38,722 bases of DNA from a virus: positions 1 to 38,722 of the IMG/VR virus record IMGVR_UViG_3300020125_000129; one strand, written 5' to 3'. The notes under the pieces were generated by a model. It saw only the letters and a program-made list of their open reading frames with translations. It did no database searches and was not told where the DNA came from. Shown here in pieces: positions 97-18,433 of the stretch. The position numbers and the translations under genes are program-made. The first letter of the stretch is position 1. Each line of letters starts with the position of its first letter.

Positions 97-1503
97 TGTC
101 GTGCCGTTGAGTTCGTCCGTGATCCGCACCCACTTGCCGCCGGACCAATACTCGCGCGCCGCCATCCACGCGATTTCGTAGATCTCGCGTGACCAGTAGC
201 GCAGCGCATCGGCGAGCGGCTCGTTCTGGGCCTGTCCGCCCGCCTGCTGAGCGAGGATGGCACGACCCGACAACTCGCGTGGATCAGTGCCGGACAACGC
301 CGCATTGGGGCCGGATAGCTGCATCTCGGCGGTGGCGTGCTGCAACAGCTGAAACTGTCCGGCGGCGAGGTCGGCCGACTGTTCGATCTCGAATTTCATG
401 CCGGGCATGACCTCGACGTAGCCGTCCGGCCGGGCCACCTCGCGGCGTGCCTTGTCCACGTCCTGCACGGCGCCCTGCTCGGCCACCACCTGGCGGACGG
501 ACAGCAGGTGCAGCGCCTTCGAGCGTCGCTTGTTGATCTCGTCCTGCAGGCTGATGAGGCCGCGCACCATGCCGTAGCGCTGGTTTTCCCGATTTATGTA
601 GCTCGACCGCAGTCTGATGCTGCATGCGCTCTTGCCGCGCCGGTCCTTGAACTTTGACCGCTCCGGGTTGGCCAGCAGGCCGTTCTTCGTGAACGTCGCG
701 CGCCACCACGCTCCGCGCTCCTCCCAGTGGCATTGCACGACACGCACGCGACGGCGCCGGTTGTCGGTCCAGAACGCGGTCTCCGGTCTGTCATTGTAGT
801 AGAAATCCACCGACGAGAATGACGCCTCGATTACGTCATCCGCATCTGGATATGTGCCCTCCAACTGGTCGCGATCCATCCAAATCACTATGCCCTTGTA
901 GCGCGCATCGCTGAAATCAAGCGTGCGGCTATGCGGATCGTAAAACACGCGGTCGCTGGGGACGTGCGTTATGCGGATATTGGCCCCACCCTGGCCGTCA
1001 TCCTCAAGACTGATCTCTGCGCCTCCGAATCCCTCGACCAGCATGTTCTCAAATACGGCGGAGCGGACGAGGCTGAAATTGTTGTCGTCGCTGATGTAGC
1101 GCAGCGCCTGTGTGGCGGCCTGCGCGCGATCTTCCTCGGCCGGCGTGCGGGCGAATGCCTTGGGATCGGTGCGCGCCTTACGCTCCATACCGCAGAGTAG
1201 GCTGACCTTGTCGTGAATCTTGTTCACCACGATCGGCGGCTGTCCACGCTTCTTCAGTTCGTCCAGTTCCTCCTTGCTCCACTGCACGTGGTCGAAATAT
1301 TCCCTGTCACGCTCGGCAAGCTGGATCTCATCCTGACGTGCGAGCTCGCTCTCCTCGAACCACCGCACCAGCCGGTCGTGCAGGTCGTCGAGATCGCGCG
1401 GATACTCATCCCCCATACCGCTGCCGGTGAGGTCGGAGACGGCCGGCGGCTGGTCAGGGCCGCGTGGCTCGTGGACGTGGATGTGGATAGCGGTGTCGCT
1501 CAT
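1..1503 (-). CDS. Portal protein, N-terminal 501 codons (continues at 38626-37532)
   Basis: Dodecameric portal at the capsid vertex, through which DNA is packaged and ejected; P22 gp1-like by sequence and order. The ATG at 1503 forms an ATGA overlap with the alpha-CTD-like gene. The frame is open to base 1, and the 96-base terminal repeat carries it on at 38626. The joined product is 865 residues, longer than P22 gp1 (725). Features seen are an acidic N-terminus, the motif QPPIVVNKIHDKVSLLCGME, and RYGMVRGLISLQDEINKRRS, which is typical of this portal family. The C-terminal half, at the other end of the window, is very rich in Gln and Ala. The preceding gene pair encodes terminase, as expected. 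The split is caused by linearisation, not by mutation. Confidence 0.93.
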   Translation of the reverse strand, partial: MSDTAIHIHVHEPRGPDQPPAVSDLTGSGMGDEYPRDLDDLHDRLVRWFEESELARQDEIQLAERDREYFDHVQWSKEELDELKKRGQPPIVVNKIHDKVSLLCGMERKARTDPKAFARTPAEEDRAQAATQALRYISDDNNFSLVRSAVFENMLVEGFGGAEISLEDDGQGGANIRITHVPSDRVFYDPHSRTLDFSDARYKGIVIWMDRDQLEGTYPDADDVIEASFSSVDFYYNDRPETAFWTDNRRRRVRVVQCHWEERGAWWRATFTKNGLLANPERSKFKDRRGKSACSIRLRSSYINRENQRYGMVRGLISLQDEINKRRSKALHLLSVRQVVAEQGAVQDVDKARREVARPDGYVEVMPGMKFEIEQSADLAAGQFQLLQHATAEMQLSGPNAALSGTDPRELSGRAILAQQAGGQAQNEPLADALRYWSREIYEIAWMAAREYWSGGKWVRITDELNGTTWVGINRPIRVMDKLAAMPEQMRMQMMQRMQLQ

Positions 1504-1928
1504 TGGCTCGGTTGCTGGGTTCCGGCGACGGCGCCTGTGCCGCCTAGCAGGCCGGCGCCATTACCTCGTGGCTGCGGATAGTGAACCATTGCATCGAGCA
1601 GCGTCGCTGCCGCCTGTAGATGCGCGGCAATGGCACGGAGTTGCTGGGCGTACTGCTGTGGACGGAAGCCCAGCACGTCATTGGCCTTCAGGTAGGCGCC
1701 TATCGCCTCCTGAACTTCGTTGAATGACTTCCGCCCGAAATTGGGTATCCGCCTTAACTCGAAGTCGCTCAACTCCAGCAGACGCTCGATCGTGTCGATG
1801 CCCTCATCCATGAAGCAGTGGCGTATCCTGGTAGAGAGACCACTCAACTCGCTGATCGGCGTCTTGCTACGACCTGAGGCTGCGCGGTAGGCGTTGAATG
1901 CCTCGACATACTCCTGGCGGTCACTCAT
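1500..1928 (-). CDS. RNA polymerase alpha-CTD-like small protein
   Basis: 142 residues. Residues 24-80 look like the C-terminal domain of the RNA polymerase alpha subunit: PISEL, then LSTRIRHCF, a helix, and PNFGRKSFNEVQEAI at 62-76. The last segment matches the alpha-CTD helix-hairpin-helix consensus PN(F/L)G(R/K)KSLxEI. The Arg aligned with E. coli R265, and the GxKS-type loop that contacts DNA, are present. There is no alpha N-terminal domain. After the domain come a helical stretch (90-116) and a Gly/Gln-rich tail. The gene lies between terminase and portal, overlapping the 89-residue gene by 8 nt and portal by 4 nt. In hosts this domain binds UP elements and activators. Here it could compete with, or recruit, host polymerase (inference). 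Another helix-hairpin-helix family is the main alternative. Confidence 0.8.
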   Translation of the reverse strand: MSDRQEYVEAFNAYRAASGRSKTPISELSGLSTRIRHCFMDEGIDTIERLLELSDFELRRIPNFGRKSFNEVQEAIGAYLKANDVLGFRPQQYAQQLRAIAAHLQAAATLLDAMVHYPQPRGNGAGLLGGTGAVAGTQQPSQ

Positions 1929-2190
1929 CCCGTGCTGCCTTCACTGCGGCCTCACCAAAGTCCCTGAACCAGTGCGCCACGAACGCGAGGCGGTCGGCGT
2001 CGGTGCGGACGCCATCGGCCTTGGCGTATGCGGCGAGGAACGCCGCGGCCCACTTGTCGGGGTCGGCGCCGACCTCGCGCTGGAACCGCGCGCCGGAGAG
2101 GGGTTCAGTCATCGCGAGCGAATGACGTATCTCGTCCCGGACCCACCCTGCAAACGCTTGGCGATCGGCATCGGATAGGGGTCCAGCCAT
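1921..2190 (-). CDS. Hypothetical 89-residue protein between terminase and portal
   Basis: I do not recognise a family. The product is 89 residues, charged, mostly helical in appearance and rich in Ala, Asp and Arg, with several Trp (GWVRDEI, DKWAAAF, AHWFRDF). No signal peptide or membrane segment is seen. The ATG at 2190 follows the terminase stop by one base, which makes it the natural coupled start; upstream in-frame starts would run deep into terminase. Its 3' end overlaps the alpha-CTD-like gene by 8 nt. The position suggests a packaging or head-assembly accessory role, but nothing in the sequence proves it. Confidence 0.75.
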   Translation of the reverse strand: MAGPLSDADRQAFAGWVRDEIRHSLAMTEPLSGARFQREVGADPDKWAAAFLAAYAKADGVRTDADRLAFVAHWFRDFGEAAVKAARDE

Positions 2191-2191
2191 C

Positions 2192-3643
2192 CTACGCCAC
2201 CCTCCAGTTCTGAACATCTGAGCGGCCGGCACGCTGGAAGGCCGCAGACCAACTGTCGCGCACGACGGGCTTGATGGTATCACGCACGAACGGCCGCGAC
2301 ATGCACGCATAGCGGCACGAGTCCGGCGCGTGGTCCTCCATGTCGCTATCCACGTCCTCTGGCCGTGCGTCGTCGTGCTGCAGCGCCGGCAGGGTGCGTA
2401 TGAGGTCGCGCGACGTGTTGAACAGCAGCAGCATCGGTGCGCCGTCAGCGTCGCCCTCAAGGCGCGCACGCACCTGGTCCCAGCCGCCCATGGCGCCACG
2501 GCCTGCAACACGCTTGTTGTCGGCGGGGCGGAAATGTACGCCGAGGCCCATCATGCGGTGGGCGATCGATGGGCCACCGTCCTCGGCGAACATGGCGGGG
2601 TCGGCAACGCCGGTCATTGCTGCGGGATCGTCTGCCTCGCGCGCTTTGATGCCAGCAGCGATCACCTCGGCGGTCATGCGCAGGCCGACGTTGGGTTCTC
2701 CTGGCCGCATGCCATACCATTCGCGATAATTGACCAGCGCGCCGCGGGCCATGCCATCGCTACCGTCGCTGACTGCCCACCAGTGGCAGGCGAACGGGCG
2801 AGCGCTGCCCCAGTCGAATGAGCGGAACCGCAGCCAGTGCTCGGGCAACGAACGCGGCGCGATGACGTGGCGCTCCATGGAGAACTCGGGAAAGAACGCG
2901 CCACTGACAACCGACCAGTCGCCTTCGAGCCAGGCGCGCACCAGTTCGGGCGAGCCGGACGCACGCAGGCGCTGCACGTAGTCGGGGCCGAGGTAAATGT
3001 TATCGGCCACCCGTGACGGGATGTAGATGCGCTCCAACCCCGTGGCATCCTTGAGCACCCGCCAACCCATCGGCGCCTGGTCGATGTAGCGGGCACGCAG
3101 CCATTGGTGCCCAGGACCGCCAGGGTTGCCGGTGAGCCGCATACCGACTGGAACACCGTGGCCGGAGCGCAGCGTTGCCATGAGCTTGAGGATCGGCGAC
3201 GGCGACGGGAAGTTGCCGGCCTCCTCGATGTAGACCCGCGTATAGCTGGCGCCTTGGTAGACCTCGGCGTCGGCGTCGCGTTCGAGATAGGCGAACGTGA
3301 GCCGCGCGCCGTTCGGCATGATGACGCGCATCGGGTTGACGGTAAACTGCGCGTTGATCTTGGAGTAGATGGCCCGGCCACGCTCGAACAGTTCCAGCAG
3401 TTCCGTCCGTGAACGCCGCACCATCAGGCCGATGGCATTGACGCCATACTTCTGCGAATGGGCAGCCCACTCGCCCAGCACCGCGTCGCTCTTGCCACCG
3501 CCGCGAGCCCCGCCGAAGAACACCTCGAACACCGGGCAGTCGCAGAACGACGACTGCGGCCCCGGTTGCGGTGTCCAGGCGGACGCTATTCCGCTGGGGG
3601 CGGGTCGTGGTCGATCTGCGCGGGTGCGTGCTGCGTGAGCCAT
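2192..3643 (-). CDS. Terminase large subunit (packaging ATPase-nuclease)
   Basis: Motor of headful DNA packaging: an N-terminal ATPase drives DNA through the portal and a C-terminal RNase H-like nuclease cuts the concatemer. Over 483 residues I see Walker A GGARGGGKS (44-52), Walker B with catalytic Glu VYIEEAG (137-143), a coupling-type TGNPGG motif near 171-176, and nuclease acidic residues at SFDWGS (D277) and GVADPAMF (D348). I chose ATG 3643, inside the 3' end of the small subunit (58 nt overlap). A GTG at 3748 would add 35 basic residues of low complexity that look like read-through of the overlapping frame. The gene is followed at once by the 89-residue gene. Its order, small subunit, large subunit, portal, is standard for tailed phages. 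Confidence 0.95.
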   Translation of the reverse strand: MAHAARTRADRPRPAPSGIASAWTPQPGPQSSFCDCPVFEVFFGGARGGGKSDAVLGEWAAHSQKYGVNAIGLMVRRSRTELLELFERGRAIYSKINAQFTVNPMRVIMPNGARLTFAYLERDADAEVYQGASYTRVYIEEAGNFPSPSPILKLMATLRSGHGVPVGMRLTGNPGGPGHQWLRARYIDQAPMGWRVLKDATGLERIYIPSRVADNIYLGPDYVQRLRASGSPELVRAWLEGDWSVVSGAFFPEFSMERHVIAPRSLPEHWLRFRSFDWGSARPFACHWWAVSDGSDGMARGALVNYREWYGMRPGEPNVGLRMTAEVIAAGIKAREADDPAAMTGVADPAMFAEDGGPSIAHRMMGLGVHFRPADNKRVAGRGAMGGWDQVRARLEGDADGAPMLLLFNTSRDLIRTLPALQHDDARPEDVDSDMEDHAPDSCRYACMSRPFVRDTIKPVVRDSWSAAFQRAGRSDVQNWRVA

Positions 3644-4002
3644 TCGTTGGTGCTGCTGATAGGTGTCGGGACGAAGATGGCGAACGGTTGCTGGCCGGTG
3701 TTCTCGACGACGCTGGTATCTTTCCAACCCATGCGCGTCTTGGTCCACCAGATCTGTGCGGCGACGTTGTTGTGCTTCACGGCGTTGGCGTAGAGCGCCT
3801 GGGCGACGCGGACGTTGGCCTCGGTCATGCCGGTGTCGAGTTCGCGGCGGAAGTGCTTGGTGAGCGTCTTGCGATCGATCTCCAGCGCGTTGGCGATTTC
3901 CTCCTGGCGGATGCCAAATCCGGTCATGGTGAGAACCTGCCGGCGCTGATCCTCAGTTGGCCGGTACAGCTTCGCGGTGTGTGGCTTGGTATGGCGTCCC
4001 AT
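3586..4002 (-). CDS. Terminase small subunit
   Basis: 138 residues. This is the DNA-recognition subunit that marks the packaging start and regulates the large subunit. The N-terminal half has a clear helix-turn-helix: YRPTEDQRRQVLTMTGFG, then RQEEIANALEIDRKTLTKHF (about 33-52). It is followed by a helical segment ending NNVAAQIWWTKTRMGWKD, characteristic of this terminase-small type in proteobacterial phages. The C-terminus is Pro-rich. The ATG at 4002 overlaps the 3' end of the HNH gene by 50 nt. That overlap is larger than others in this operon and may reflect insertion of the HNH gene next to it. The large subunit starts inside its 3' end. Confidence 0.9.
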   Translation of the reverse strand: MGRHTKPHTAKLYRPTEDQRRQVLTMTGFGIRQEEIANALEIDRKTLTKHFRRELDTGMTEANVRVAQALYANAVKHNNVAAQIWWTKTRMGWKDTSVVENTGQQPFAIFVPTPISSTNEWLTQHAPAQIDHDPPPAE

Positions 4003-4531
4003 CTGGCCTCGTCGCGGTTTGTCCGGTGAAGTTCGTCTTGCGGGTTTGCCCCCACGTTTCGGTCTTGCGATGGCACGGAGCGCATAGCGTCCGTCCGTTT
4101 GCTACGTCGAACCGAAGTTCTGGGAACGTAGCGAACGGCTTGATGTGGTCGGCCTCCAAGCGAACGCGGCAGCCCTTGGTGCTCTTGGCTCGGCATGTCT
4201 GGCAGACGTAACCGTCCCTCTCGAACACCGAACGCCGCCAGTCTGCGTATCTGCTACTGCGCCGCAACCTATAGTGGACCTCTGTCACGCCGCCCTTCCA
4301 CATGGGCGCGTTTTCTCCGGAATTGGCCTGCCGCATAGCTTCGATGGTCGCCGCCGAATGGCGGTAGCCGTGTCGCCAATTCTTTAGGCCCTTGTTCCAG
4401 GGGACGTTGCCCTGGGCAAAAGTGGAGGGCGTGCGCTTATAATCCGTGCGGTCGAACGCAGAGCATCTCCGCGAACAGTATCGCTGCCCCTTCCTGCCAG
4501 GAAAGGTGATATTACACCTGCTGCAAGTCAT
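3953..4531 (-). CDS. HNH homing-type endonuclease with zinc finger and NUMOD3-like motif
   Basis: 192 residues from ATG 4531, chosen because it starts directly at a Cys cluster (MTCSRC, then YCSRRC) and overlaps the upstream gene by only 20 nt. GNVPWNKGLK and a GENAPMWKGG segment resemble NUMOD3 DNA-binding modules. The HNH core spans about 107-157: zinc Cys pair C110/C113, catalytic ADHI (127-130), N145, and C150-C153-H154. Such enzymes nick or cut at a site in endonuclease-free relatives and spread by homing; some phages also use HNH proteins in terminase cutting. It lies directly before the small terminase, so a role in packaging cleavage is an alternative. A homing role is my preference because two other HNH genes sit between virion genes. 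Confidence 0.87.
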   Translation of the reverse strand: MTCSRCNITFPGRKGQRYCSRRCSAFDRTDYKRTPSTFAQGNVPWNKGLKNWRHGYRHSAATIEAMRQANSGENAPMWKGGVTEVHYRLRRSSRYADWRRSVFERDGYVCQTCRAKSTKGCRVRLEADHIKPFATFPELRFDVANGRTLCAPCHRKTETWGQTRKTNFTGQTATRPDGTPYQATHREAVPAN

Positions 4532-5792
4532 CTGCTTCAGTCCGCGCTGCGCCACGCTGCTTGCCTGTCTCTGAGAATGTCTTGCCTGTGGCGAGTAGCG
4601 TAGCATCTTGACCTGTAAAGGCCATCCACCTGAGTGCGGTCACGTCGCAGTAGGCTGGCGATATCTCGATGGCGTGGCAGGCGCGTCCGGTCGTCTCGGC
4701 GGCGATGATGGTGGTGCCTGAGCCGACGTATAGGTCGGCGACCACATCCTGCGGGTTGCTCCACTGGTTTAGGATATCAACGAACAGCGATGTTGGTTTT
4801 TGCGCGGGATGAACCCTATTTCGAGCATCCTGTGCGTTGGCTGAACTCAGAAACCCGAACCAGTCATGCCGCAGCATACGTCGCTTATGCCGTTGCCTAG
4901 ACCAAATCAGCTCGAACTCGGAGCCGATTGCCTCGGATTGGGTATCTTTCCGTTTATCCCAAACGAGCCAACTTCCCTCGTTCCTATCAGGTAGCAACTC
5001 AGCATAATAATCCGCGCCGAACAGAAACACCTCCCTCGCTGGCCCACACATCGCAAATACCGCAGAAATCAGGTGGGGCGAGAAGTCCTCGTGATCGCCG
5101 ATTATATGGTCATATTTACCACCGCGCGTTCCCGACCTTGCGCCCAATGATCTGAGGCTGCCTCGTATGGCCGAGAAATCAGTGTTTAGCTTCATTCCAT
5201 AAGGCGGGTCAGTAAGCACCACGTTGGGCTTCACACCCCCCAGCGCGAGCGACACATCCACCTCGGACGTTGCATCGCCGCACACCAGCCGATGGCGTCC
5301 GAGCAGCCACACGTCGCCGAGTTGCGTGACCGGTTCGGCCGGCGTTTCCGGCACATCGTCAGGATCGGTGAGGCCATCGGTGTGGTCGGCGAACACGCCG
5401 AGCAGCTCGTCCTCGCCGAAGCCGGTGAGCGCCAAGTCGAAGCCACCCTCGCGCAGGTCCAGCAACTCGGTGCGCAGCAGGTCGTCGTTCCACGAGGCGT
5501 TGAGCGCCAGCTTATTGTCGGCGATGCGGAGCGCGGCTTTCTGCGCGTCGGTGAGGCCGGTGAGCACGAGGGCGGGCAATTCCGCCATTCGGAGCTGGCG
5601 CGCGGCGGCGAGGCGCCCGTGACCGGCGATGAGGACGTTGTGTTCGTCGATCAGCAGCGGATTGGTGAAGCCGAACTCGCGGATTGATGCGGATATTTGC
5701 GATATTTGGGCTTCGGAATGTTCCCGCGCATTTTTAGAATACGGTGTGATTTCTGATACTTGCGTGATTTTCATCGCCGGGAATTCGAGCAT
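4512..5792 (-). CDS. ParB/sulfiredoxin-like domain fused to DNA methyltransferase
   Basis: 426 residues. The N-terminal 100 or so form a ParB/Srx-like nuclease-type domain: ITPYSKNAREH, then ADP/DNA-contact motif AGHGRLAAARQL (56-67). The C-terminal part is an amino-methyltransferase using S-adenosylmethionine. Catalytic motif IV is TDPPYG (194-199), HPAQKP is at 328-333, and the AdoMet loop DLYVGSGTTIIAAE is near 353-366; this order indicates the beta group. The product should methylate adenine N6 (or cytosine N4) in DNA, probably protecting phage DNA. Such ParB-methylase fusions are common next to terminase genes. The ATG at 5792 lies 21 nt after the NusG-like stop; an internal ATG at 5774 is also possible. 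The target sequence cannot be read from the gene. Confidence 0.9.
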   Translation of the reverse strand: MLEFPAMKITQVSEITPYSKNAREHSEAQISQISASIREFGFTNPLLIDEHNVLIAGHGRLAAARQLRMAELPALVLTGLTDAQKAALRIADNKLALNASWNDDLLRTELLDLREGGFDLALTGFGEDELLGVFADHTDGLTDPDDVPETPAEPVTQLGDVWLLGRHRLVCGDATSEVDVSLALGGVKPNVVLTDPPYGMKLNTDFSAIRGSLRSLGARSGTRGGKYDHIIGDHEDFSPHLISAVFAMCGPAREVFLFGADYYAELLPDRNEGSWLVWDKRKDTQSEAIGSEFELIWSRQRHKRRMLRHDWFGFLSSANAQDARNRVHPAQKPTSLFVDILNQWSNPQDVVADLYVGSGTTIIAAETTGRACHAIEISPAYCDVTALRWMAFTGQDATLLATGKTFSETGKQRGAARTEADDLQQV

Positions 5793-5813
5793 CGGATTTA
5801 TGCGTTTCCGGCA

Positions 5814-6401
5814 TTAGTCGCGTGGGATAAGGCTATCGATGCTGACCGTAACGTCCCGGACGTGTCCGAACAGCATGAGCGCGACGTGAGCGATTCCCCG
5901 TGTCACGGAGACGACGACGCCGGGGTGATCGCGGAACGGCCCCGTGGCGAGGCTGCAAGGGGTGCCAGGAGCCCATTGGCTACCGGCTGGGGGGATATAG
6001 CGGCGGGCGTCCTCAGTGGCCTGTAGCGCGTCCACGAGGCCGTGTGGCGCCCACTGGATCTGGTCGTGGTGTTTGAGCACGGAGCGGACGCCTGGTGTTT
6101 CGTAGATGGGTCGCCAGGAATTGCGGCTGTCGTGGTGGACGAAGAGGTAACCGGGCCAGAGCGGGACGACGACGTTGTGCCAGAGGGTGGGCAAGACGCG
6201 GTCGCGGCGGCGGGTGGCGTATTGGGGAAGGAAACAGCGATAGCCGCGGCGGGTGAGGTTGTTGTTGGCCCAGATCTCGGCTTGGGGGTGTGTGACGGCG
6301 ACGACCCAGCCGGAATTGCAGCGGCACCCGGTGTGGTCGGCCGGGCTAAGGCTAGCTAAGTCCGCTGTGGGTTGGATGTCAACGGCGGTGATGGCGTTCA
6401 C
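5814..6401 (-). CDS. NusG/RfaH-family transcription antitermination protein
   Basis: 195 residues. After about 30 N-terminal residues comes a NusG N-terminal (NGN) domain: GWVVAVTHPQAE (31-42), RGYRCFLPQ (52-60), the family hallmark PLWPGYLFV (80-88), and TPGVRSVL (102-109). A KOW-type SH3 segment follows (about 143-193, PGTPCSLATGPFRDHPG onward). NGN proteins bind the clamp helices of RNA polymerase and suppress pausing; RfaH-type specialised paralogues act on chosen operons. The gene sits in the middle of the long leftward operon, just before packaging genes, where lambdoid phages would need an antiterminator. I infer a Q-like role for late transcription. Its ATGA overlap with the membrane protein gene fixes the start. 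Confidence 0.87.
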   Translation of the reverse strand: MNAITAVDIQPTADLASLSPADHTGCRCNSGWVVAVTHPQAEIWANNNLTRRGYRCFLPQYATRRRDRVLPTLWHNVVVPLWPGYLFVHHDSRNSWRPIYETPGVRSVLKHHDQIQWAPHGLVDALQATEDARRYIPPAGSQWAPGTPCSLATGPFRDHPGVVVSVTRGIAHVALMLFGHVRDVTVSIDSLIPRD

Positions 6402-6634
6402 CGGACTCTCGGGAAGAGGGGTCCGCCGCCGATGGCGCAGAACAGCAGGTCGGCGACGAGGTAGATCACGAAGACGCAGACGACGGCCCAGATCAGGATG
6501 TTGATGGTTGCGGGGATGCGGCTATCGACGGAGCTGAGCATTGGGAGGACCCAGATGCGCAGGATGGCGATGACGGCGCATAGGACGACCAGGACGACGA
6601 GCATCTGGACGATCCAGGCGACTGAGAAGCACAT
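6398..6634 (-). CDS. Small two-pass membrane protein (possible holin)
   Basis: 78 residues with two strong hydrophobic segments: about 5-31 (VAWIVQMLVVLVVLCAVIAI) and about 44-69 (INILIWAVVCVFVIYLVADL). They are joined by a short polar loop, and the tail is basic. The size and two-helix layout are compatible with a class II holin, but no lysin is adjacent, so this is only a possibility. The ATG at 6634 overlaps the preceding stop by one base (TGATG). The stop overlaps the NusG-like start (ATGA), so it is translated within the operon. Confidence 0.75.
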   Translation of the reverse strand: MCFSVAWIVQMLVVLVVLCAVIAILRIWVLPMLSSVDSRIPATINILIWAVVCVFVIYLVADLLFCAIGGGPLFPRVR

Positions 6635-6867
6635 CAGGCGACAACCTCCAGGATGGGGCGCCGGTGGTGCCGGTGGCGCGGGTTGCGCAGGCCGGAGCGG
6701 CGCCAGGCTTCGGCGAGCTGTTCGGGGTCGAGGCGCACCGGCTGACGGGGCTTGAAGTCGGCGTACTGGGTGGCTGCCTGCTTGGCGACGCCGATGGCAT
6801 CGAAGTGGGCTTTTGCCTCCCGCAGCAGACGTGCGCAGCGCTCGGGATCGCGGTCGCTGTCGGTCAT
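6634..6867 (-). CDS. Hypothetical 77-residue basic protein
   Basis: No recognised family. The product has 77 residues, a helical, charged N-terminal half (ERCARLLREAKAHFDAIG) and an Arg/His-rich stretch near the C-terminus (RNPRHRHHRRPILEV), which could contact nucleic acid. It is coupled on both sides: ATGA with the DUF1376 gene upstream and TGATG with the membrane protein downstream. The ATG at 6867 is preferred over one at 6933 because the longer version would read through the end of the DUF1376 gene. Confidence 0.7.
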   Translation of the reverse strand: MTDSDRDPERCARLLREAKAHFDAIGVAKQAATQYADFKPRQPVRLDPEQLAEAWRRSGLRNPRHRHHRRPILEVVA

Positions 6868-7766
6868 GCCGCGTGCTCCCGAAGCCACGTGAGTTGCTCC
6901 TCGACGGTCCGCACCGGATCGCAGGGCTGCCACTTGTAGATGCTGGTATCAACCGCAGGTTGCGCCTCTAGCTGACGGACCTGTTCGTCTGCGCCGCGCA
7001 CCACGCCATAGGGGACGTGCGTGGTCAGGGCCTTGGCGACGCGGCTGACCTGGGCTGCGACGGGACCGGAACCCACGCTGTCGGTGACGGGTTTCAGTGG
7101 CCGCATGGCATTGTGAGGCAGTGGGGTTTCGTCGGCGCCGACCTCGTCGAGCAGGGTCCGCAGCGCATCGGCGGGGGGCGTTTCTTCTCGCGCGCGGCTT
7201 CCAACCGTCAGATTAGAAGGTAAAGAGGAAGATTTCTTCTCTTTTTCTTCCCCGCTGAAGGTTTTGGTACTTGGTGATGGTAAGACCGATTTCGCAACCG
7301 TTTCCGGCGGCGTTTCGCAACGCGTTTGAGACGGGTTCGGAAACGCGGATGAAACGCGTTTCACAGACATTTCAGGAGGACCGTGGCCGTTCGGTTTTGT
7401 GGGAGGGTGTGAGCCATCCTTGGCCCGCCAAGCCCTCAACCTTTGGTTGTCGTTGTGGCGCTGCTCGTTGGCGCGCTGCCAATTCTCATGCGCCCTGGCA
7501 AGCTCGTGGTCGCAGCGCTTTTGGTGCAGCAGCCCGTCGCGCTCGGTAAAGAACCGCCTGACCACAGGCCCAACGGTCTTTTTCCACAGGCGAAGCTCAG
7601 TGCGGGCGATCTGCGCCAACTTCGCGTCGGCAACAGGCAGCGGGCCATTGCGCCAATAATACATCAGCAGCAGGAGGTAAGCCCCATGCTGGGCGCCATC
7701 GAGTTCCATGGTGTCGCCGAGATAATCGCCGATGTAGAGCGGCATCCAACTGTCGTTGTAGCTCAT
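6864..7766 (-). CDS. DUF1376/YdaU-like protein (replication region)
   Basis: 300 residues. The first 80 show the DUF1376 signature: SWMPLYIGDYLGDTMELDGAQHGAYLLLL, then YWRNGPLP. This family occurs in the replication modules of many prophages, including YdaU of the Rac prophage, and its N-terminus resembles a winged-helix DNA-binding fold. The rest is low-complexity linker, with a Ser/Lys/Glu-rich patch near 165-185. ATG 7766 gives an ATGA overlap with the PD-(D/E)XK gene. Lying after a DnaA domain IV protein, it most likely takes part in starting phage replication, perhaps as an initiator or helicase-loader substitute; that role is inferred from position. Confidence 0.8.
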   Translation of the reverse strand: MSYNDSWMPLYIGDYLGDTMELDGAQHGAYLLLLMYYWRNGPLPVADAKLAQIARTELRLWKKTVGPVVRRFFTERDGLLHQKRCDHELARAHENWQRANEQRHNDNQRLRAWRAKDGSHPPTKPNGHGPPEMSVKRVSSAFPNPSQTRCETPPETVAKSVLPSPSTKTFSGEEKEKKSSSLPSNLTVGSRAREETPPADALRTLLDEVGADETPLPHNAMRPLKPVTDSVGSGPVAAQVSRVAKALTTHVPYGVVRGADEQVRQLEAQPAVDTSIYKWQPCDPVRTVEEQLTWLREHAA

Positions 7767-8305
7767 GGCTTCGGCTCCCACTGGACCGCGTTGCAGGCGT
7801 CAGCCCAAAGCGCCATCGTTGGCGCCGGATAACCCCAACTCGTGGGCGGCTCATTGATGGGACCAGTGCCTTGCGTGGCGGTGACCCAGAGTTTTCGGTC
7901 GCGGGAAATGCTGATGAGATCAGCATAGAACACCGGCCTTTCGGGATCTGGAAACCACAGCAGCCACGCTGGTGCGTGGGTAGCGGCCCACCAACCCACC
8001 TCCAGGGGACCATCATTGCCGAATGGTGCCAGCCGCATAACAAACACCGCCTCGCCGCGCGCGGCGTCCTGAACCCGTTTGAACAACTCGGGATCAGGCT
8101 CGGTGAGCGGCTTGATCTCGATCAGCGCATTGAATGGTGATGTGATCGCGAAATCCGGTGACCACTTACCCAGATCGAACGGCTCGTATTCGTATTGCCA
8201 TCCCAGCCGGTCGAAGAACGCGCCCCACCGCGCCTCCAGCCGGCTGCGGTACATCCGCCCCCGGTAGAGCGTCGGGATCGCGGCGATGGTGTATTCCGTG
8301 CTCAT
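7763..8305 (-). CDS. PD-(D/E)XK-fold nuclease-like protein
   Basis: 180 residues. The order of acidic residues fits a PD-(D/E)XK nuclease: YRSRLEARWGAFFD (E24), then WSPDFAI (D51), then LIEIKPL (E63, K65). YRGRMYRSRLEARWG, with a following aromatic EYEPFDL, is characteristic of small phage endonuclease-like proteins. The C-terminal half has several Trp and no membrane segment. Coupled by ATGA overlaps to the DnaA-domain gene upstream and to the DUF1376 gene downstream, it is probably a replication or recombination nuclease. Substrate is unknown. Confidence 0.78.
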   Translation of the reverse strand: MSTEYTIAAIPTLYRGRMYRSRLEARWGAFFDRLGWQYEYEPFDLGKWSPDFAITSPFNALIEIKPLTEPDPELFKRVQDAARGEAVFVMRLAPFGNDGPLEVGWWAATHAPAWLLWFPDPERPVFYADLISISRDRKLWVTATQGTGPINEPPTSWGYPAPTMALWADACNAVQWEPKP

Positions 8306-8580
8306 GGCACGGACCTCCGCAGGCCCTCGACCACCCCGGCGAACTCCCGGTCGGCCGCCATCAGCCCGTCCACCCGCCGGCACGCCTGCATGACGGTGGT
8401 GTGATCGCGGCCAAACGCCCTGCCAATGGCCGGAAAGCTGGCGGTGGTGGTCGTCCGCGCCAGCCACATGGCGATCTGGCGGGAGCGGGCCGGCGCTTGG
8501 CGGTCGGACAGCAGATCGCACAGCGTCACGCCCATGCGGGCCGCGACGAGGCGTTGAATGTCGGCAATGGTCATGGACAT
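8302..8580 (-). CDS. Stand-alone DnaA domain IV (DnaA-box binding) protein
   Basis: 92 residues that correspond only to the C-terminal domain of the replication initiator DnaA. IADIQRLVAARMGVTLCDLLS is its first helix, RQIAMWLAR follows, and the signature GRDHTTVMQACRRV lies at 57-70; in DnaA this signature reads DHTTV and contacts the 9-mer box. There is no AAA+ ATPase domain. It could recognise DnaA boxes in host or phage DNA, either to recruit replication to a phage origin or to block host initiation. It heads the replication sub-operon behind the structured leader at 8600-8700. A second in-frame ATG lies at 8574. Confidence 0.88.
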   Translation of the reverse strand: MSMTIADIQRLVAARMGVTLCDLLSDRQAPARSRQIAMWLARTTTTASFPAIGRAFGRDHTTVMQACRRVDGLMAADREFAGVVEGLRRSVP

Positions 8581-8599
8581 ACCCCTTGCGTTGCCGCCC

Positions 8600-8700
8600 G
8601 AGGTATGTTTGAAACTGGAACCAGCGACGGTTCTCCAGTCTCAGCGCATACCTCAGTGCAGTCGGTTTCGTCTCAGTATCGCCCCGGTTCCCGCCGGGGC
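8600..8700 (-). other. Structured intercistronic leader before the DnaA-domain gene
   Basis: The 206-nt gap 8581-8786 has no gene that I trust but is full of inverted repeats. An outer pair GAGGTATG (8600-8607) and CATACCTC (8647-8654) encloses a second pair, ACTGG-AACC (8614-8622) with GGTT-(CT)-CCAGT (8629-8639). A separate GC-rich hairpin is GCCCCGG (8681-8687), loop, CCGGGGC (8694-8700). Read as leftward RNA it would precede the DnaA-domain gene. It could be an attenuator, protein-binding site or replication element. Function is unproven. Confidence 0.5.
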
Positions 8701-8786
8701 GTTCTGCTTTCATGGCACAGAAACGATTGAGTCGGAAGGCGGTCATTTCCGGCCTCCATGCACGTCGTCGTCTAGCGCCCGGAAAC

Positions 8787-9212
8787 TCATGCCGCCACTC
8801 GTCCTCTCAGCGGCACTTGCACGCTCACCGCGTCCAGCGCCTCGACCACCGTGCGGCAGACCGCAACCGGAAACCCCGCCGCCGCGAGCTGTGGATGCAG
8901 CACCTTCTGCGCCGGCGACAACGCACCGCCGCGCTCGCGCTTCAGTTCGAGCAGCGCCACGCGGCCATTCCAGAACACCCCAAGATCCGGCCAGCCCGGC
9001 AGCGCGCCGAGCCGCTTGCGCCGCGCGCCCTCGGCAGCGGACGAGGCGTTGCGCAGCTCCCAGGTGTTCAGCACCGCGCCCTTCGGCAGCAGCACCCGCA
9101 GCGCCTGATAGACCGCCGCGTGCAGGTCGTCCTCGGGTGCGACGGGTGCCGTCAGCCGGAACCGCCGCGGCGATGCCGTGGGTGCGCCAGCTATGCCGCC
9201 CGACACCCTCAC
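8787..9212 (-). CDS. VRR-NUC domain nuclease
   Basis: 141 residues from GTG 9212, which overlaps the GcrA-like stop as GTGA, the standard coupling in this operon. An upstream ATG would only add the shadow of the GcrA gene. The VRR-NUC fold is clear: E-D-D-L-H near 27-31, GALPGWPDLGVF (69-80, D76), ALLELKRERG (87-95, E89 and K91), LSPAQK (99-104), and VCRTVVEALDAV. These are the active-site positions of PD-(D/E)XK enzymes of the Holliday-junction and flap nuclease type. In phages such small VRR-NUC proteins accompany replication or recombination genes, and it probably resolves branched phage DNA. Confidence 0.88.
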   Translation of the reverse strand: MRVSGGIAGAPTASPRRFRLTAPVAPEDDLHAAVYQALRVLLPKGAVLNTWELRNASSAAEGARRKRLGALPGWPDLGVFWNGRVALLELKRERGGALSPAQKVLHPQLAAAGFPVAVCRTVVEALDAVSVQVPLRGRVAA

Positions 9213-9607
9213 GCCACCGGCTCCCGGTAACGCGGGTAGACGCGGGCATGATGCTCCGGGCACCAGGCCGTGCCAGGCTTTACCGCCATGGCGCAGACGC
9301 GCCACATCGGCGACGTACCATCGTGCCACTGGCAACCCCGCGCCGGCGGCATCGGCCGCTCCGGCGCCAGTGGCGGAGTGATAATCGCCTCGACCACCGG
9401 CTGGCGCACCACCACCGCCGGCTGCTCACTGCGCGGCCGGCCGGTGTTGCCCCTGTTGTCGCCCTGCAGCCGGATACCGAGGCGCCGGCATTTGCCGACC
9501 ACCTGGTTTTTGGTGAGGTCCATCTCCCGGCTGATCTCCGAGCCGGACAAGCCCTGCTCCGCGAGATCACGCAACAGCACCACGCGAGTGTCGGGCCAGG
9601 GGCTCAT
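9209..9607 (-). CDS. GcrA-like transcription regulator
   Basis: 132 residues with both ends of the GcrA family. The N-terminal HTH is PWPDTRVVLLRDLAEQGLSG, then SEISREMDLTKNQVVGKCRRLG (residues 3-44). The C-terminal Cys/His motif is GCQW (91-94), RVCAM (103-107) and AWCPEHHARVYP (115-125). Host GcrA of Alphaproteobacteria binds sigma-70 RNA polymerase and promoters near methylated GANTC sites to drive cell-cycle genes. The linker is shorter here than in host GcrA. ATG 9607 gives an ATGA overlap with the HTH gene upstream. Lying third in the leftward operon, it may be an early-to-middle activator of phage promoters or a competitor of host GcrA. This homologue also supports an alphaproteobacterial host. 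Confidence 0.85.
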   Translation of the reverse strand: MSPWPDTRVVLLRDLAEQGLSGSEISREMDLTKNQVVGKCRRLGIRLQGDNRGNTGRPRSEQPAVVVRQPVVEAIITPPLAPERPMPPARGCQWHDGTSPMWRVCAMAVKPGTAWCPEHHARVYPRYREPVA

Positions 9608-9978
9608 GACCACACCCCAGCCGGCCAGGACCGCAGCAGCGGCGCCGTGGCCCGCTCGGAACGCGCGACCGCAAGCTCCCACGCCAGCGCCTCACGGGCG
9701 CGGTGGGCCGCTGCAGCCCAGCGATTGGCGCCATACTGCGGCTTGCTCGGCAGCTCGGCGCGGTGCTTGCGGAGTTGGTGGGCCACGGCCATCGGCGTGC
9801 GCCCGAGCCGCTGGGCAATCACCTTGTGCGCCGCCCCCTCCCATCGCCACCGGATGGCGCGACGCAGATCAGGCATGGTCCAGGGACGGAAGGCCGGCCG
9901 TACGTTTTCGGACACACTCCGTTTTGAGTGAGCGTCACCGTCGCGCGCCTGGGGCGCGGTGGCTGGTGCGCATGCCAT
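9604..9978 (-). CDS. HTH/SANT-like DNA-binding protein
   Basis: 124 residues if it starts at ATG 9978. The core is PWTMPDLRRAIRWRWEG, then HKVIAQRLGRTPMAVAHQLRKHRAEL. It looks like a three-helix Myb/SANT or GcrA-type HTH: conserved Trp, then a second and a recognition helix. The C-terminus is Ala/Arg-rich. No partner domain is seen. The start is uncertain because no good Shine-Dalgarno precedes 9978; the ATG at 9876 is another choice. It overlaps the GcrA-like start (ATGA), so the two small DNA-binding proteins are made together, probably as early regulators. Confidence 0.72.
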   Translation of the reverse strand: MACAPATAPQARDGDAHSKRSVSENVRPAFRPWTMPDLRRAIRWRWEGAAHKVIAQRLGRTPMAVAHQLRKHRAELPSKPQYGANRWAAAAHRAREALAWELAVARSERATAPLLRSWPAGVWS

Positions 9979-10018: not shown

Positions 10019-10219
10019 TCAGCCGGCCCGGCCCGGAAACAGATCGGGCCGCAGCCGACGCTTGGGGATCTTGGTGAGCCGCGCCACTGCCGCGACGTGG
10101 CGCTCCGGCACCCGCCGCCACTGGCTGACCGCCGCGGGAGTTATCCCAATGGCCCTGGCGATCTCAGTGACCGCCAGCCGCTGACGAAACGCCTCCTCCA
10201 GGATCGGGTCACGTTCCAT
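10019..10219 (-). CDS. Cro/YdaS-like HTH repressor
   Basis: 66 residues, nearly all one HTH domain: DPILEEAFRQRLAVTEIARAIG, then ITPAAVSQWRRVPERHVAAVARL. The SQW and VPERHV pattern is typical of YdaS/Cro-type small repressors. It is transcribed leftward, divergent from the CI-like gene, from a promoter I read at 10249-10277. One operator copy (10224-10238) lies between that promoter and its start, suggesting self-repression. It is the first gene of the long leftward operon, the position of cro in lambdoid phages. Confidence 0.88.
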   Translation of the reverse strand: MERDPILEEAFRQRLAVTEIARAIGITPAAVSQWRRVPERHVAAVARLTKIPKRRLRPDLFPGRAG

Positions 10220-10316: not shown

Positions 10317-10778
10317 GTGTGTGGAATGGAGGGTCGCGACCGACTGCGGAGGGCGCGCGTGGCGCGTGGGCTGCGGCAGCAGGACCTTGCCGATGCGCTA
10401 GGCGTGAGCGCAACCGCAGTACTGATGTGGGAAAATCCGCGGTATCAGCGGAGCGTCCCCGTTAGGTTCCGCAAGAAAATCAGCGAAATCCTGGACATAG
10501 ACGAGGCGGACTTGGTTGACCAAGATACACCGGCGCCGGCCGAGATGTCCAAGCCAAAGCACCCGCGGCCAAGCCCGAAAGAGCATGGGCTGATGACTAC
10601 GGACAAGGTCGAAACCCAACTCCTGAAGCTGTTCCGGCTAATGCCAGAACCCCTGAAGCTGGTGCAGTTGGCGCAGTTCGTTGAGTGTATTAGTGGCAGC
10701 AACCCTGATCGCGAAGGCCGCAATGCGTTCAATCAGGAGGGGTTCTCCAGCGGCAGCGCGGCACACGAGTCGCGCTAG
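10317..10778 (+). CDS. CI-like XRE-family HTH regulator (no peptidase domain)
   Basis: 153 residues. The N-terminal XRE/lambda-repressor HTH is GRDRLRRARVARGLRQQDLADALGVSATAVLMWEN (about 6-40), followed by a helix FRKKISEILDIDEADLVD. The C-terminal half has a Pro-rich linker and a helix LLKLFRLMPEPLKLVQLAQFVECI. There is no LexA/CI-type Ser-Lys peptidase domain, so RecA-triggered self-cleavage is not expected and induction must work another way. I chose GTG 10317 because GGAG (10304-10307) lies 9 nt before it; ATG 10326 is the alternative. It is divergent from the Cro-like gene and is followed by a hairpin terminator. Confidence 0.85.
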   Translation: MCGMEGRDRLRRARVARGLRQQDLADALGVSATAVLMWENPRYQRSVPVRFRKKISEILDIDEADLVDQDTPAPAEMSKPKHPRPSPKEHGLMTTDKVETQLLKLFRLMPEPLKLVQLAQFVECISGSNPDREGRNAFNQEGFSSGSAAHESR

Positions 10779-15377: not shown

Positions 15378-17065
15378 TTCCGCCGGCAGTAGCTGTTGCC
15401 GTCCGTGTTGCGCTGCATCTGCTGCAGCAGCCAATCGTAGCACGCCTGGGCCTGTGGCACGCCGGCCCGCGCAGCTAGTGCCAACGCACCCAGCGAGTAG
15501 CTCGGATAGGTCAAGTTCGTGGCAGCGGGCAGCGTGTCGGGATCGTCATGCACGCAGGCATCGGGCTGCATGCTGGCGTTGAGATCCCAGGCCGCAGCCC
15601 AGTGCGGCACCACCTCGGCGCCCCGCTCGCTGCGTATCGCCACCTCGTACGGCGATGGCACCGCACGCACCCAGCCGCTGGTGCCGTTGGTGCGCGCCAT
15701 CACGTCGAGCGCCTTCCACTCCAGCACCGGCCGCCAGTCCTCGCCGCCCATGCCGACGATCCAGCCCAGCACGCTGGTCAGGAAATCCTCCTGCCAGGGC
15801 GCCACCCATGTATCAGCGGGCAGCGGTGGATCAGCCGGGGCGCCTATGCCGTCGGACACCAGCGACAGGTTGCACGCTGGCGGCTGATCGCTACCCACAA
15901 AGCGCGACATGAACCACTGCTGTTCGTCGTCCATGCGGGACTTGAAGATGCCCTGTGGCAGCAGCCAGGACGGCACGGTGTCGGGTGTCGTCTCTGCCGC
16001 TTGGGCCAGCGCACGCAACGTCCATGCCACCGCTCTGACGGCGTTGCCAAGGTTGTAATTCGCCCGTGCACCGGGGCTGAGCATCACCACGTTGTAGACG
16101 CACGCGCACTGCATCGCCTCCAGCGCATAGGGATCGCCGGTCAGCAGGAACGGCAAGAACGCCAACGACGGCTCATGCGCCACATCGAGCACGACGGGTG
16201 AGGTGGGGTTGCTGATGTAAGGGTCTGCACCACTCGGTGAATACATCGTGGCGTTAGGGTATTGCATCCAGTCCAGCGGGGCATTCGTGCGGTCATCCCG
16301 GAAATGCCAGGTGAGCGTGCCCGACGCCTCAAGCTGCGCCAGCACCGACGCCCATGCACTGTCAGTGCCCTGGCACAGATACTCAGCCTGCGCCTCGGTG
16401 AACAGGCCGATTTCGTCCCGCTCGCCGGTCGATGGGATGTAGGCGGTGATACCGGCGAGGTCCATTGGCCCAGCGTATGTGCGGGCGTTGGACAGCGGGA
16501 TGGCCGAGCCGAACAGATCCTCGGAGTAGCGTGGCAGCAATCCCCCGGCAAAGTCCGCGGCCTGATAGATGATCGGCCGCGGTGCACTCTGCCAACGCCA
16601 GCGCGAATGCCAGTAGTGTTCCGGTGCCTGCACCACGGCGAGCGTGCTTGGGCCACGCATGATGGTGGCGGTGTAGGCACCCATATTGGCCGGCTCTACG
16701 TCCCACAAGCCACCGAGTTCAAACACCACCTCCAGGCGCTCATGGCCCCGATCGTCGCCGCCCAAGTCGGGACGGAACATGACGCGGAAGCCCGGTAAGT
16801 CGTCGTGCGTGGCCAGCCGACAGCTTTGGATGAAATGCCCGCCGGGCGCGTGGTAGTCGCCGAGGTCGGTGCCCTCGTCCTCGTGGAACGTGTAGACGGT
16901 GCCCTCATAGTCGATCTCGACGGTGAGCCAGCCCGTCGGCTCCGGCCCTGGCGTGGGTTCAGGCGGCTCTGGCGTGGTCTCCGGTTCCAGCGTCACCGTG
17001 GCGATGATGTCCACGGGGGCGAACCCGTCCACCTTGAGCGTCGTGGTGATGGTTGCGTCAGTCAT
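15359..17065 (-). CDS. Large unrecognised protein (568 residues)
   Basis: I do not recognise a family. The N-terminus is a short beta-type segment (TITTTLKVDGFAPVDIIATV), then a Pro/Glu linker (TPEPPEPTPGPEP), then a probable beta domain (about 45-170). A long Trp-rich part follows with repeating helix-loop patterns (for example VLGWIVGMGGEDWRPVLEWK and YSLGALALAARAGVPQAQAC), resembling an alpha/alpha toroid as in some polysaccharide lyases or glycosidases. No signal peptide. ATGA overlap with the methyltransferase stop sets the start. It could be a virion or cell-wall-acting protein, but no catalytic motif is clear. It lies outside the main structural block. Confidence 0.75.
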   Translation of the reverse strand: MTDATITTTLKVDGFAPVDIIATVTLEPETTPEPPEPTPGPEPTGWLTVEIDYEGTVYTFHEDEGTDLGDYHAPGGHFIQSCRLATHDDLPGFRVMFRPDLGGDDRGHERLEVVFELGGLWDVEPANMGAYTATIMRGPSTLAVVQAPEHYWHSRWRWQSAPRPIIYQAADFAGGLLPRYSEDLFGSAIPLSNARTYAGPMDLAGITAYIPSTGERDEIGLFTEAQAEYLCQGTDSAWASVLAQLEASGTLTWHFRDDRTNAPLDWMQYPNATMYSPSGADPYISNPTSPVVLDVAHEPSLAFLPFLLTGDPYALEAMQCACVYNVVMLSPGARANYNLGNAVRAVAWTLRALAQAAETTPDTVPSWLLPQGIFKSRMDDEQQWFMSRFVGSDQPPACNLSLVSDGIGAPADPPLPADTWVAPWQEDFLTSVLGWIVGMGGEDWRPVLEWKALDVMARTNGTSGWVRAVPSPYEVAIRSERGAEVVPHWAAAWDLNASMQPDACVHDDPDTLPAATNLTYPSYSLGALALAARAGVPQAQACYDWLLQQMQRNTDGNSYCRRKWAMAT

Positions 17066-18288
17066 TCGGCAGCATCCGCAAACAGATCAGCCATGCGCTC
17101 GGTCTCCGGGTCTTCGGCAGGCGGGAACGCGGTGAACAGCGGCGCGTCGTCGCGGCAGCGCTGCATCGCCATCTCGGTGTATGACGGGTTGAGTTCTATG
17201 CCGATGGCGTCGCGTTGCAGGCGATCGGCGACCAGCAGCGTGGTGCCGGCGCCGGCGAAGGGATCGAGGACAACGCAGGGAACGGGATCGCCAGCCTCGC
17301 ACTTGCACGATGGCGACCAGCCGAGTGTCTCCACATCCTTCAGCTTCCGCACGTCGTAGGGGCGCGCCGACATAGCAGCGACAGGATCGCCGCCGGCCTT
17401 GCGTTTCATGTTGTTGTTGCCGTTCCCCGCATCCGTGTAGCTCACGGATGTCTCCCGCACCCACGGCTTCCCGCACCGGCTGCATGCGCCGCGCTCGCTG
17501 GTGCCCGCCCGGATGCAGCGCTCGGCCAGGGCTGGGGGGTACGTTGCGAAGTGGGCTTGTGAATACGGATGTGTGGGCAGAGTCCAAACATTACGTAGGT
17601 TGCGGCCGGCACTCTCGTTGCTCGCCTGCCGTCCACCACCGTCGTTGCGATCAGGATTGCCAGGACGTGACGGAATCTCGTTCCACCAGTCCCGACTGTG
17701 CGGCTCCCGCACCGCCTCGGCATCGTAATAGTAGCGAGCGCTACGACTGAGCAGAAACACGTGCTCATGGGCACTGGTCGGGCGGTCGGTGCAGCTCTCG
17801 GGCATGGGGTTGGGCTTGTGCCAGATGATGTCGGAGCGCACCCACCAGCCGTCAGCCTGCAACGCGAGCGCCAGGCGTGCGGGCATCATCATCAGGTCTT
17901 TGTGCTTCAGGCGATGTGCCGCAGGGTCGCGGTTTGCCCGGTATCCGGCGCCCTTCCCGCGTCTGGTCTCCAGCGTATCGGCACCGTTCGATCCGCCGCC
18001 ATGAACGGTCTGCGCCGGCATGTCAGAGCCGCCACGCGAGGCGGCGTAGCTGTCGCCTATGTTGAGCCAGAGCGTACCATCAGGCCGCAGCACCCGCTTA
18101 ACCTGCTGAAACACGCCGACCATCTCACGGAGATAATCCTCCGGCGTCGCCTCCAGCCCGATCTGGCCATCCACGCCATAATCCCTGAGCCCGTAGTATG
18201 GCGGAGACGTTACGCAACAGTGTATACTTGCGGCTGGCATGTCCGCTAGAACGTTACGGCAATCACCTGCAAGGAGTCTTATGCTCAT
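17062..18288 (-). CDS. DNA methyltransferase with zinc-ribbon insertion
   Basis: 408 residues. The motif order is that of a beta-type amino-methyltransferase: RLLAGDC near the start, catalytic TSPPYYGLRDYG (27-38), and the AdoMet motif DPFAGAGTT (342-350). The SPPY form is common in N4-cytosine enzymes but also occurs in N6-adenine ones. A Cys pair C269/C272 and C328/C330 suggest a zinc ribbon inserted in the target domain. It would modify phage DNA, probably against host restriction. Start ATG 18288 overlaps a rightward small gene head to head by 8 nt; a GTG at 18303 would add five residues. First gene of the leftward accessory operon. Confidence 0.88.
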   Translation of the reverse strand: MSIRLLAGDCRNVLADMPAASIHCCVTSPPYYGLRDYGVDGQIGLEATPEDYLREMVGVFQQVKRVLRPDGTLWLNIGDSYAASRGGSDMPAQTVHGGGSNGADTLETRRGKGAGYRANRDPAAHRLKHKDLMMMPARLALALQADGWWVRSDIIWHKPNPMPESCTDRPTSAHEHVFLLSRSARYYYDAEAVREPHSRDWWNEIPSRPGNPDRNDGGGRQASNESAGRNLRNVWTLPTHPYSQAHFATYPPALAERCIRAGTSERGACSRCGKPWVRETSVSYTDAGNGNNNMKRKAGGDPVAAMSARPYDVRKLKDVETLGWSPSCKCEAGDPVPCVVLDPFAGAGTTLLVADRLQRDAIGIELNPSYTEMAMQRCRDDAPLFTAFPPAEDPETERMADLFADAAE

Positions 18289-18433
18289 GTCACACCAGAA
18301 CACGGATAAGGCGGCGGCTCAGTCAGAGATGGATAAGCTGCGCGAGGAACTGCTCAACGATCCAAAGGTCCGCATCGGTCAGAACGTTCTGCGCGACCGG
18401 ATGCGGGAAAAGGCGGAACGACAGCCCGAATAG
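18281..18433 (+). CDS. 50-residue charged helical protein
   Basis: AAGGAG (18271-18276) precedes ATG 18281 by 4 nt and ATG 18287 by 10 nt; either start gives a small helical protein (QSEMDKLREELLNDPKVRIG, then QNVLRDRMREKAERQPE). No family recognised. It is divergent from, and overlaps by 8 nt, the methyltransferase gene. Longer upstream starts lack a Shine-Dalgarno. Confidence 0.62.
   Translation: MLMSHQNTDKAAAQSEMDKLREELLNDPKVRIGQNVLRDRMREKAERQPE

Follow-up and report, generated by a model that had tools for sequence, protein, structure and literature searches.

The window, by which we mean the whole stretch of 38,722 nucleotides analysed here, is the complete IMG/VR virus record IMGVR_UViG_3300020125_000129. 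Its portal gene is divided between the two ends (1-1503 and 37532-38722), which makes circular permutation of the genome probable. The subject of this analysis is an element at 8680-8737 on the minus strand, between the genes of a GcrA-like protein and a NusG paralogue, in which a predicted promoter with a GANTC site is followed by an RNA hairpin. This element has not been described before and is widely conserved; it may time late gene expression. The features on which the argument rests are as follows.

8709-8737, minus strand: predicted sigma70-like promoter, with -35 TTCCGA (8737-8732), a 17-nt spacer and -10 CATGAA (8714-8709)
8729-8733, minus strand: GANTC site (GACTC), the CcrM methylation motif, at the junction of -35 and spacer
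8680-8701, minus strand: RNA hairpin CGCCCCGG-cgggaa-CCGGGGCG at the predicted 5' end of the transcript, with no U tract
9209-9607, minus strand: GcrA-like protein with an N-terminal GcrA helix-turn-helix (HTH), a proline-rich linker and a C-terminal C..C..C..H domain (PF07750, E 8.4e-11)
5814-6401, minus strand: NusG paralogue of 195 aa, NGN and KOW (PF02357, E 3.9e-10)
2192-3748, minus strand: large terminase (TerL), with which the late block begins downstream of NusG (963 phage records matched by tblastn)
1500-1928, minus strand: stand-alone protein of 142 aa resembling the C-terminal domain of the RNA polymerase alpha subunit (alpha-CTD; PF03118, E 1.8e-13, residues 22-76)

The initial annotation had read the GcrA-like, NusG and alpha-CTD genes as a trio within one leftward operon. 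The three open reading frames (ORFs) do lie where it had placed them on the minus strand, with matches to GcrA, NusG and RNA_pol_A_CTD above the Pfam cut-offs, and their order is as claimed, the GcrA-like gene being the earliest and the alpha-CTD gene the latest. A single operon is also reasonable, since the genes from cro (10219) to the portal gene (1503) are tightly packed on the same strand, a view that is qualified by the promoter-like element inside it (8709-8737).

For comparison, about 100 related viral contigs were gathered by NusG, GcrA and portal searches and scored with Pfam models and local profiles for the presence of the trio genes. All of these relatives, denoted below by G and L numbers, are uncultivated contigs, many of them fragmentary. 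A second NusG scan of IMG/VR returned 219 relatives, 80 of which were kept. Among named phages, no close match was found to the window or to any of the three proteins. Prophage matching gave at best a 46% portal match in Variovorax, which does not establish a host.

The element stands out as a 75-bp non-coding stretch (8672-8746) that is 93% identical in G015/G016 where the neighbouring DNA has diverged. A pattern scan located the GC hairpin in 11 contigs; of the nine other contigs, six have a co-oriented NusG gene further downstream, and the remainder are short pieces. The hairpin is translated in differing frames among phages and is therefore conserved as nucleic acid. When a pairing descriptor was run around NusG, 19 copies were found upstream in sense orientation, one in antisense and none downstream, compared with 0.35 in shuffles. 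Double-sided changes occur in 9 of the 10 hairpin pairs across 19 copies (covariation score 0.61 vs 0.13 shuffled); the count of 9 is favoured by construction, the copies having been picked by this descriptor, which does not hold for the positional controls or for the diverged copies with compensatory stem changes recovered by a sequence-only profile. The hairpin of the window folds with a z-score of -4.6 and is matched by cmsearch at E 2e-17, with the window copy in the training set. The loop is conserved as 6-nt YNGGRA and is accompanied by a conserved 3' flank, CTGTAACT. No Rfam family matches the hairpin, and the covariance model gave no significant match in control bacterial loci.

The promoter has the same layout in 38 relatives: TTGCnn or TTCCGA, 17 nt, CAYAAM and then 6-7 nt to the hairpin. 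Such a layout reads as a predicted sigma70 promoter whose RNA would start with the hairpin, and the window holds no second GANTC promoter built in this way. In a scan with sigma70 and terminator consensus sequences, promoter and terminator counts were near chance; the GANTC promoter was missed because its hexamers diverge from the consensus.

The covariance model detects the element in 37 of the 45 NusG loci having more than 2.3 kb of upstream sequence (one, the duplicate L236, was not searched). All of these copies, those in G006, G017 and G023 included, have the orientation of NusG and precede the gene by 0.5-3 kb (median 2.1 kb). GANTC is present at a fixed position, about 39 nt before the loop and thus outside the columns of the covariance model, in 37 of 38 NusG-linked copies, compared with 12 for the next gapped palindrome. 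If the single off-position site is counted, all 38 distinct NusG-linked copies have GANTC, as opposed to none of the four on contigs without detected NusG (Fisher 9e-6, relatedness uncorrected). On one contig (L229), two GANTC-hairpin copies (1941-1996 and 4491-4546) are found upstream of one NusG gene. Across the window genome GANTC itself is depleted about fourfold, with an observed/expected (o/e) ratio of 0.24, and the ratio is 0.11-0.32 over the window and relatives, a depletion far exceeding that of other gapped palindromes. It is 0.39 in GcrA-positive host loci. The host is likely, but unproven, to be CcrM-positive.

The protein encoded downstream of the element has a NusG fold. Its structure model, built with 18 relatives, has a predicted local distance difference test (pLDDT) score of 82, and the nearest structures in the PDB are NusG and RfaH. 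The KOW part (residues 148-193) is modelled as a beta-barrel that matches the 1nz9 KOW, while there is no separate Pfam KOW match. Within one large subgroup of the relatives, most contigs have NusG; in most of the NusG-bearing relatives the TerL identity is 49-87%. No NusG was detected in the circular G031, G032 and G033 or in G035, which have a different early region. In every relative with a placeable TerL, NusG lies just before the terminase genes TerS/TerL on the same strand, 214-2069 bp from TerL. The link to late transcription that had been suggested for the whole trio is thus borne out for NusG by its position; it is not for alpha-CTD, which is absent from relatives of the same architecture. 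The window NusG is proposed to be a resident specialised NusG (NusG-SP) serving the long late transcript. Compared with L007, L058 and L008, the NusG is a mosaic, with near-identical KOW halves and strongly diverged NGN halves.

The GcrA-like protein matches PF07750 over its N-terminal DNA-binding part as well as the GcrA structures 5yiu and 7ye1 in the PDB. Five phage homologues, with identities as low as 27%, all retain C92, C105, C116 and H119, whose order is the same as in the sigma-interacting domains (SIDs) of hosts. The structure model (pLDDT 64) is too poor for a fold comparison. A GcrA with this C-terminal motif occurs in some relatives only (G006, G015/16, G019, G021 and G031). In the five lineages that combine it with NusG (G000, G006, G015/16, G019 and G021), the element always has GcrA on its upstream side and NusG on its downstream side, as would suit a relay from early to late genes. 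The order of these two genes is thus compatible with the staging proposed by the initial annotation; alpha-CTD is not part of the core.

According to earlier work, GANTC methylation enhances GcrA binding, and GANTC mutations cut the activity of GcrA promoters by 60-80% (PMC3667746). The NusG paralogue LoaP depends on a hairpin in the 5' leader for its antitermination (PMC12691694). Based on these precedents and on the gene order, we propose a GANTC-gated, hairpin-led transcript ridden by the phage NusG. The GcrA-like protein would be produced early, from a transcript starting at the cro promoter. The internal sigma70-type promoter (8709-8737) would start a transcript with the hairpin (8701-8680) at its 5' end, which would cover the genes for a DnaA domain IV (dnaA-IV), a DUF1376 protein and NusG, continue into terminase and portal and reach the capsid and tail genes by wrap-around. 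There is about an even chance that the CcrM of the host methylates the GANTC site and that the promoter is switched on by GcrA, be it from the host or the phage, the upstream GcrA-like gene starting the relay. Somewhat more tentatively, the hairpin might bring the phage NusG to the polymerase during elongation, by analogy with dfn and LoaP, and so confer resistance to termination. NusG itself probably acts mainly on the late operon. As a whole, the combination of a GANTC-gated promoter, a hairpin leader and a phage NusG riding into the late genes appears evenly balanced between right and wrong. The stricter version, a methylation-timed relay in phages of CcrM-bearing hosts in which GcrA acts on a methylated GANTC promoter and the hairpin then loads the phage NusG for readthrough of the late operon, is a good deal more doubtful.

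Several observations weigh against this proposal. G017 and G023 have the element and NusG in the absence of a phage GcrA, which is therefore not required, and the host SID profile matches the GcrA-like protein of the window only marginally (E 0.02), its matches to G015 and G019 being better. Seven or eight NusG loci with sufficient upstream sequence have no significant element. Conversely, GANTC-less hairpins lie on contigs without detected NusG (G033, G035 and L131), so the hairpin can occur independently of NusG. Between hairpin and NusG, 7 terminators were counted where 6.5 are expected, none above chance. The weaker GANTC depletion in a Variovorax prophage (o/e 0.47) means that depletion alone is no proof of a CcrM-positive host.

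Strict NusG-specificity of the hairpin was rejected on the basis of the cmsearch matches on contigs without detected NusG. The GANTC-less hairpins of G035, G033 and L131 are located at L162:5686-5741, L161:1140-1195, L159:9036-9096 and L131:8338-8393.

Since 5'-terminal GC hairpins can stabilise transcripts, the element might also work with host factors only, as a promoter responding to host CcrM and GcrA and followed by a 5' stem-loop that stabilises the mRNA, with NusG as a neighbour acting elsewhere or generally. Such a stabiliser would fit both the hairpins found away from any detected NusG and the lack of a detected excess of terminators. However, the conserved YNGGRA loop and 3' flank exceed what a mere stabiliser needs, and the copies bearing GANTC are found only on NusG-bearing contigs, which makes this a possible but rather unlikely explanation.

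The alpha-CTD gene stands outside the NusG-element core. Its start and stop codons overlap orf85 and the portal gene, and two further features describe its position.

1921-2178, minus strand: orf85, a conserved small protein between TerL and portal
1503-1557, minus strand: 3' end of the alpha-CTD ORF, a remnant of an ART-like gene (DNA alignment upstream of the portal ATG, L064-L068 vs window)

The protein also matches alpha-CTD chains in the PDB. Within the DNA-contacting 265 determinant, seven of the eight E. coli residues are retained (R265, C269, N294, G296, K298, S299 and E302) and N268 is replaced by H, while the 261 determinant of E. coli alpha-CTD is not retained. The alpha N-terminal domain and the linker are absent from the ORF, and the protein can therefore not be called an RNA polymerase subunit. 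It probably binds minor-groove/UP-like DNA and, with low confidence, may rival the alpha-CTD of the host or modulate a late promoter. Similar small alpha-CTD-like proteins occur in bacteria (Variovorax), so this type of protein is not phage-specific. Because the identity to RpoA CTDs is about 40%, the idea that the domain was taken recently from the rpoA gene of the host was rejected.

Among the relatives examined, the gene is found only in this phage and in two more distant contigs, L101 and L102. In L070, with flanking DNA nearly identical to the window, orf85 is fused directly to the tail AGTQQPSQ and there is no alpha-CTD. The slot between terminase and portal holds an ART-PolyVal-like protein (PF18760) or an HNH endonuclease in other relatives, or is empty. 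Over its last ~55 nt, the alpha-CTD ORF is left over from a different gene, a point that the initial annotation overlooked: this piece can be aligned with the ART gene at its 3' end, so that the body of the ART gene appears to have been exchanged for the alpha-CTD part. The alpha-CTD gene is an acquired, rare cargo cassette, probably for DNA binding, in a variable slot.

ART-PolyVal-like proteins (L064:4557-5714 and L079:71-1078) are encoded beside the portal gene in many relatives, have a C-terminal tail in common with the alpha-CTD protein and are possible injected or virion proteins. The small alpha-CTD-like proteins of L101 (189-533) and L102 (2861-3196) have C-terminal extensions and lie between TerL and orf85, indicating that such proteins recur in this phage group.

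For the alpha-CTD protein alone, another function can be imagined, that of a decoy which draws UP-element DNA or activators away from the alpha-CTD of the host and stands in for the ART-like protein of the slot. ARTs of phage T4 modify alpha, the slot is common to ART-PolyVal proteins, and it is the DNA-contact residues that are conserved and not the others. A common slot is, however, not necessarily a common function, as HNH genes or nothing at all may occupy it; moreover, the alpha-CTD genes of L101 and L102 occupy a neighbouring position instead. We consider the decoy fairly unlikely.

The operon and the rest of the window contain further genes:

10317-10778: CI-like gene, divergent from cro (HTH_3)
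10019-10219, minus strand: Cro-like repressor, first gene of the leftward operon (PF14549/PF15943)
9604-9978, minus strand: HTH protein, sigma-r4/GcrA-HTH-like (weak Sigma70_r4_2 0.013, PHROG 323 1.3e-5)
8787-9335, minus strand: VRR-NUC-type nuclease, followed by the promoter-hairpin element (PHROG 824 4.9e-19, PF08774 weak)
8302-8580, minus strand: stand-alone DnaA domain IV, an origin-binding HTH with no ATPase (PF08299, E 5.7e-21)
6864-7781, minus strand: DUF1376 primosomal-type protein (PF07120 1.5e-20, PHROG 3992)
4512-5792, minus strand: ParB-N and N6/N4 DNA methyltransferase, 22 nt after NusG (PF01555 1.3e-18, PF02195 weak)

Homologues of the HTH protein at 9604-9978 are present in G006, G015, G017, G019, G021 and G023. 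The DnaA domain IV gene, also overlooked by the initial annotation, recurs in G006, G011/12, G017 and L219. A second DNA methyltransferase is encoded at 17062-18303, and in relatives both methyltransferases are often near NusG or the terminase. Three HNH-type endonucleases, likely mobile, are located at module borders (3953-4606, 29902-30477 and 36139-36678).

As the element of the window adjoins the dnaA-IV and VRR nuclease genes, and some phage origins use DNA hairpins, it could instead be a DNA signal, i.e. a replication origin or packaging site whose hairpin acts as DNA, with DnaA domain IV binding nearby. Against this stand its strict location on the NusG-coding strand and the -35 and -10 hexamers, spaced by 17 nt, that precede the hairpin; in addition, dnaA-IV is missing from most element-bearing genomes and DnaA boxes are not enriched, so that a DNA signal is improbable.

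The three genes of the trio are real, yet they are not one system. All three occur together only in this phage among the approximately 100 related contigs. The co-occurrence check across relatives, which the initial annotation had itself named as able to refute its trio, shows the genes occurring independently, with NusG but no GcrA in G017 and G023 and GcrA but no NusG in G031; the trio as a dedicated system was rejected on this ground. One transcription-takeover system with a late complex containing the alpha-CTD protein would suit the common orientation and early-to-late order of the genes in this window, but is very improbable, as alpha-CTD is missing from all close relatives (including the circular G006 and G012, and L070 with its near-identical flanks), its slot elsewhere holds ART, HNH or nothing, and GcrA and NusG are also found apart. 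Phage GcrA homologues were already known, in phiCbK (PMC3556154), as were NusG-like genes in prophages (PMC11321410, PMC7593976).

If the methylation-timed relay is correct, late phage expression would be tied to the DNA-methylation cell-cycle clock of the host. The promoter in front of the hairpin keeps GANTC despite its genome-wide avoidance, which makes the element a small, cloneable test case for whether phages read the CcrM/GcrA clock. Very few systems are known in which a NusG paralogue has an RNA recruitment hairpin of its own (LoaP), and this large uncultivated phage group, with 219 NusG relatives, offers a candidate second natural NusG-RNA pair. The most striking gene of the operon, alpha-CTD, is cargo and not core.

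Among the known systems, lambda N/Q and HK022 put are likewise phage devices at the early/late boundary, put being a cis RNA element. Unlike in those phages, a NusG paralogue is present instead, with no N- or Q-like protein recognised, and the covarying hairpin lies directly behind a GANTC promoter. GcrA homologues of the phiCbK gp222 type are phage-borne PF07750 proteins as well, and that of phiCbK was proposed to alter the replicative state of the host (PMC3556154); phiCbK is, however, a large phage of swarmer cells, whereas the phage of the window is of the cI/cro type and has its GcrA gene upstream of a GANTC promoter. The placement of NusG ahead of TerL matches the layout of the NusG-SP genes that reside in long operons, as described for tra operons of plasmids, and RfaH and the plasmid tra NusG-SP share with the phage protein the link of a specialised NusG to one very long, horizontally acquired operon (PMC7593976). 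The phage NusG model also resembles RfaH bound to the ops complex. RfaH differs in having an ops DNA element, which was not specifically searched for here, and a fold-switching KOW, while the phage KOW is modelled as a beta barrel. As in LoaP/dfn of Bacillus, an NGN and KOW NusG paralogue is combined with a small 5'-leader hairpin of a long operon, and operon-specific action is proposed (PMC12691694). The two differ in the loop, a UNCG tetraloop in dfn compared with the 6-nt YNGGRA loop in the phage, and in their targets: LoaP regulates antibiotic operons, whereas the phage operon encodes its own NusG, whose binding to the hairpin is putative. With the UNCG-type loop absent and a leader hairpin linked to a NusG-paralogue operon present (its 5' position being predicted), the phage system is not a member of the LoaP/dfn type, but it may work like it.

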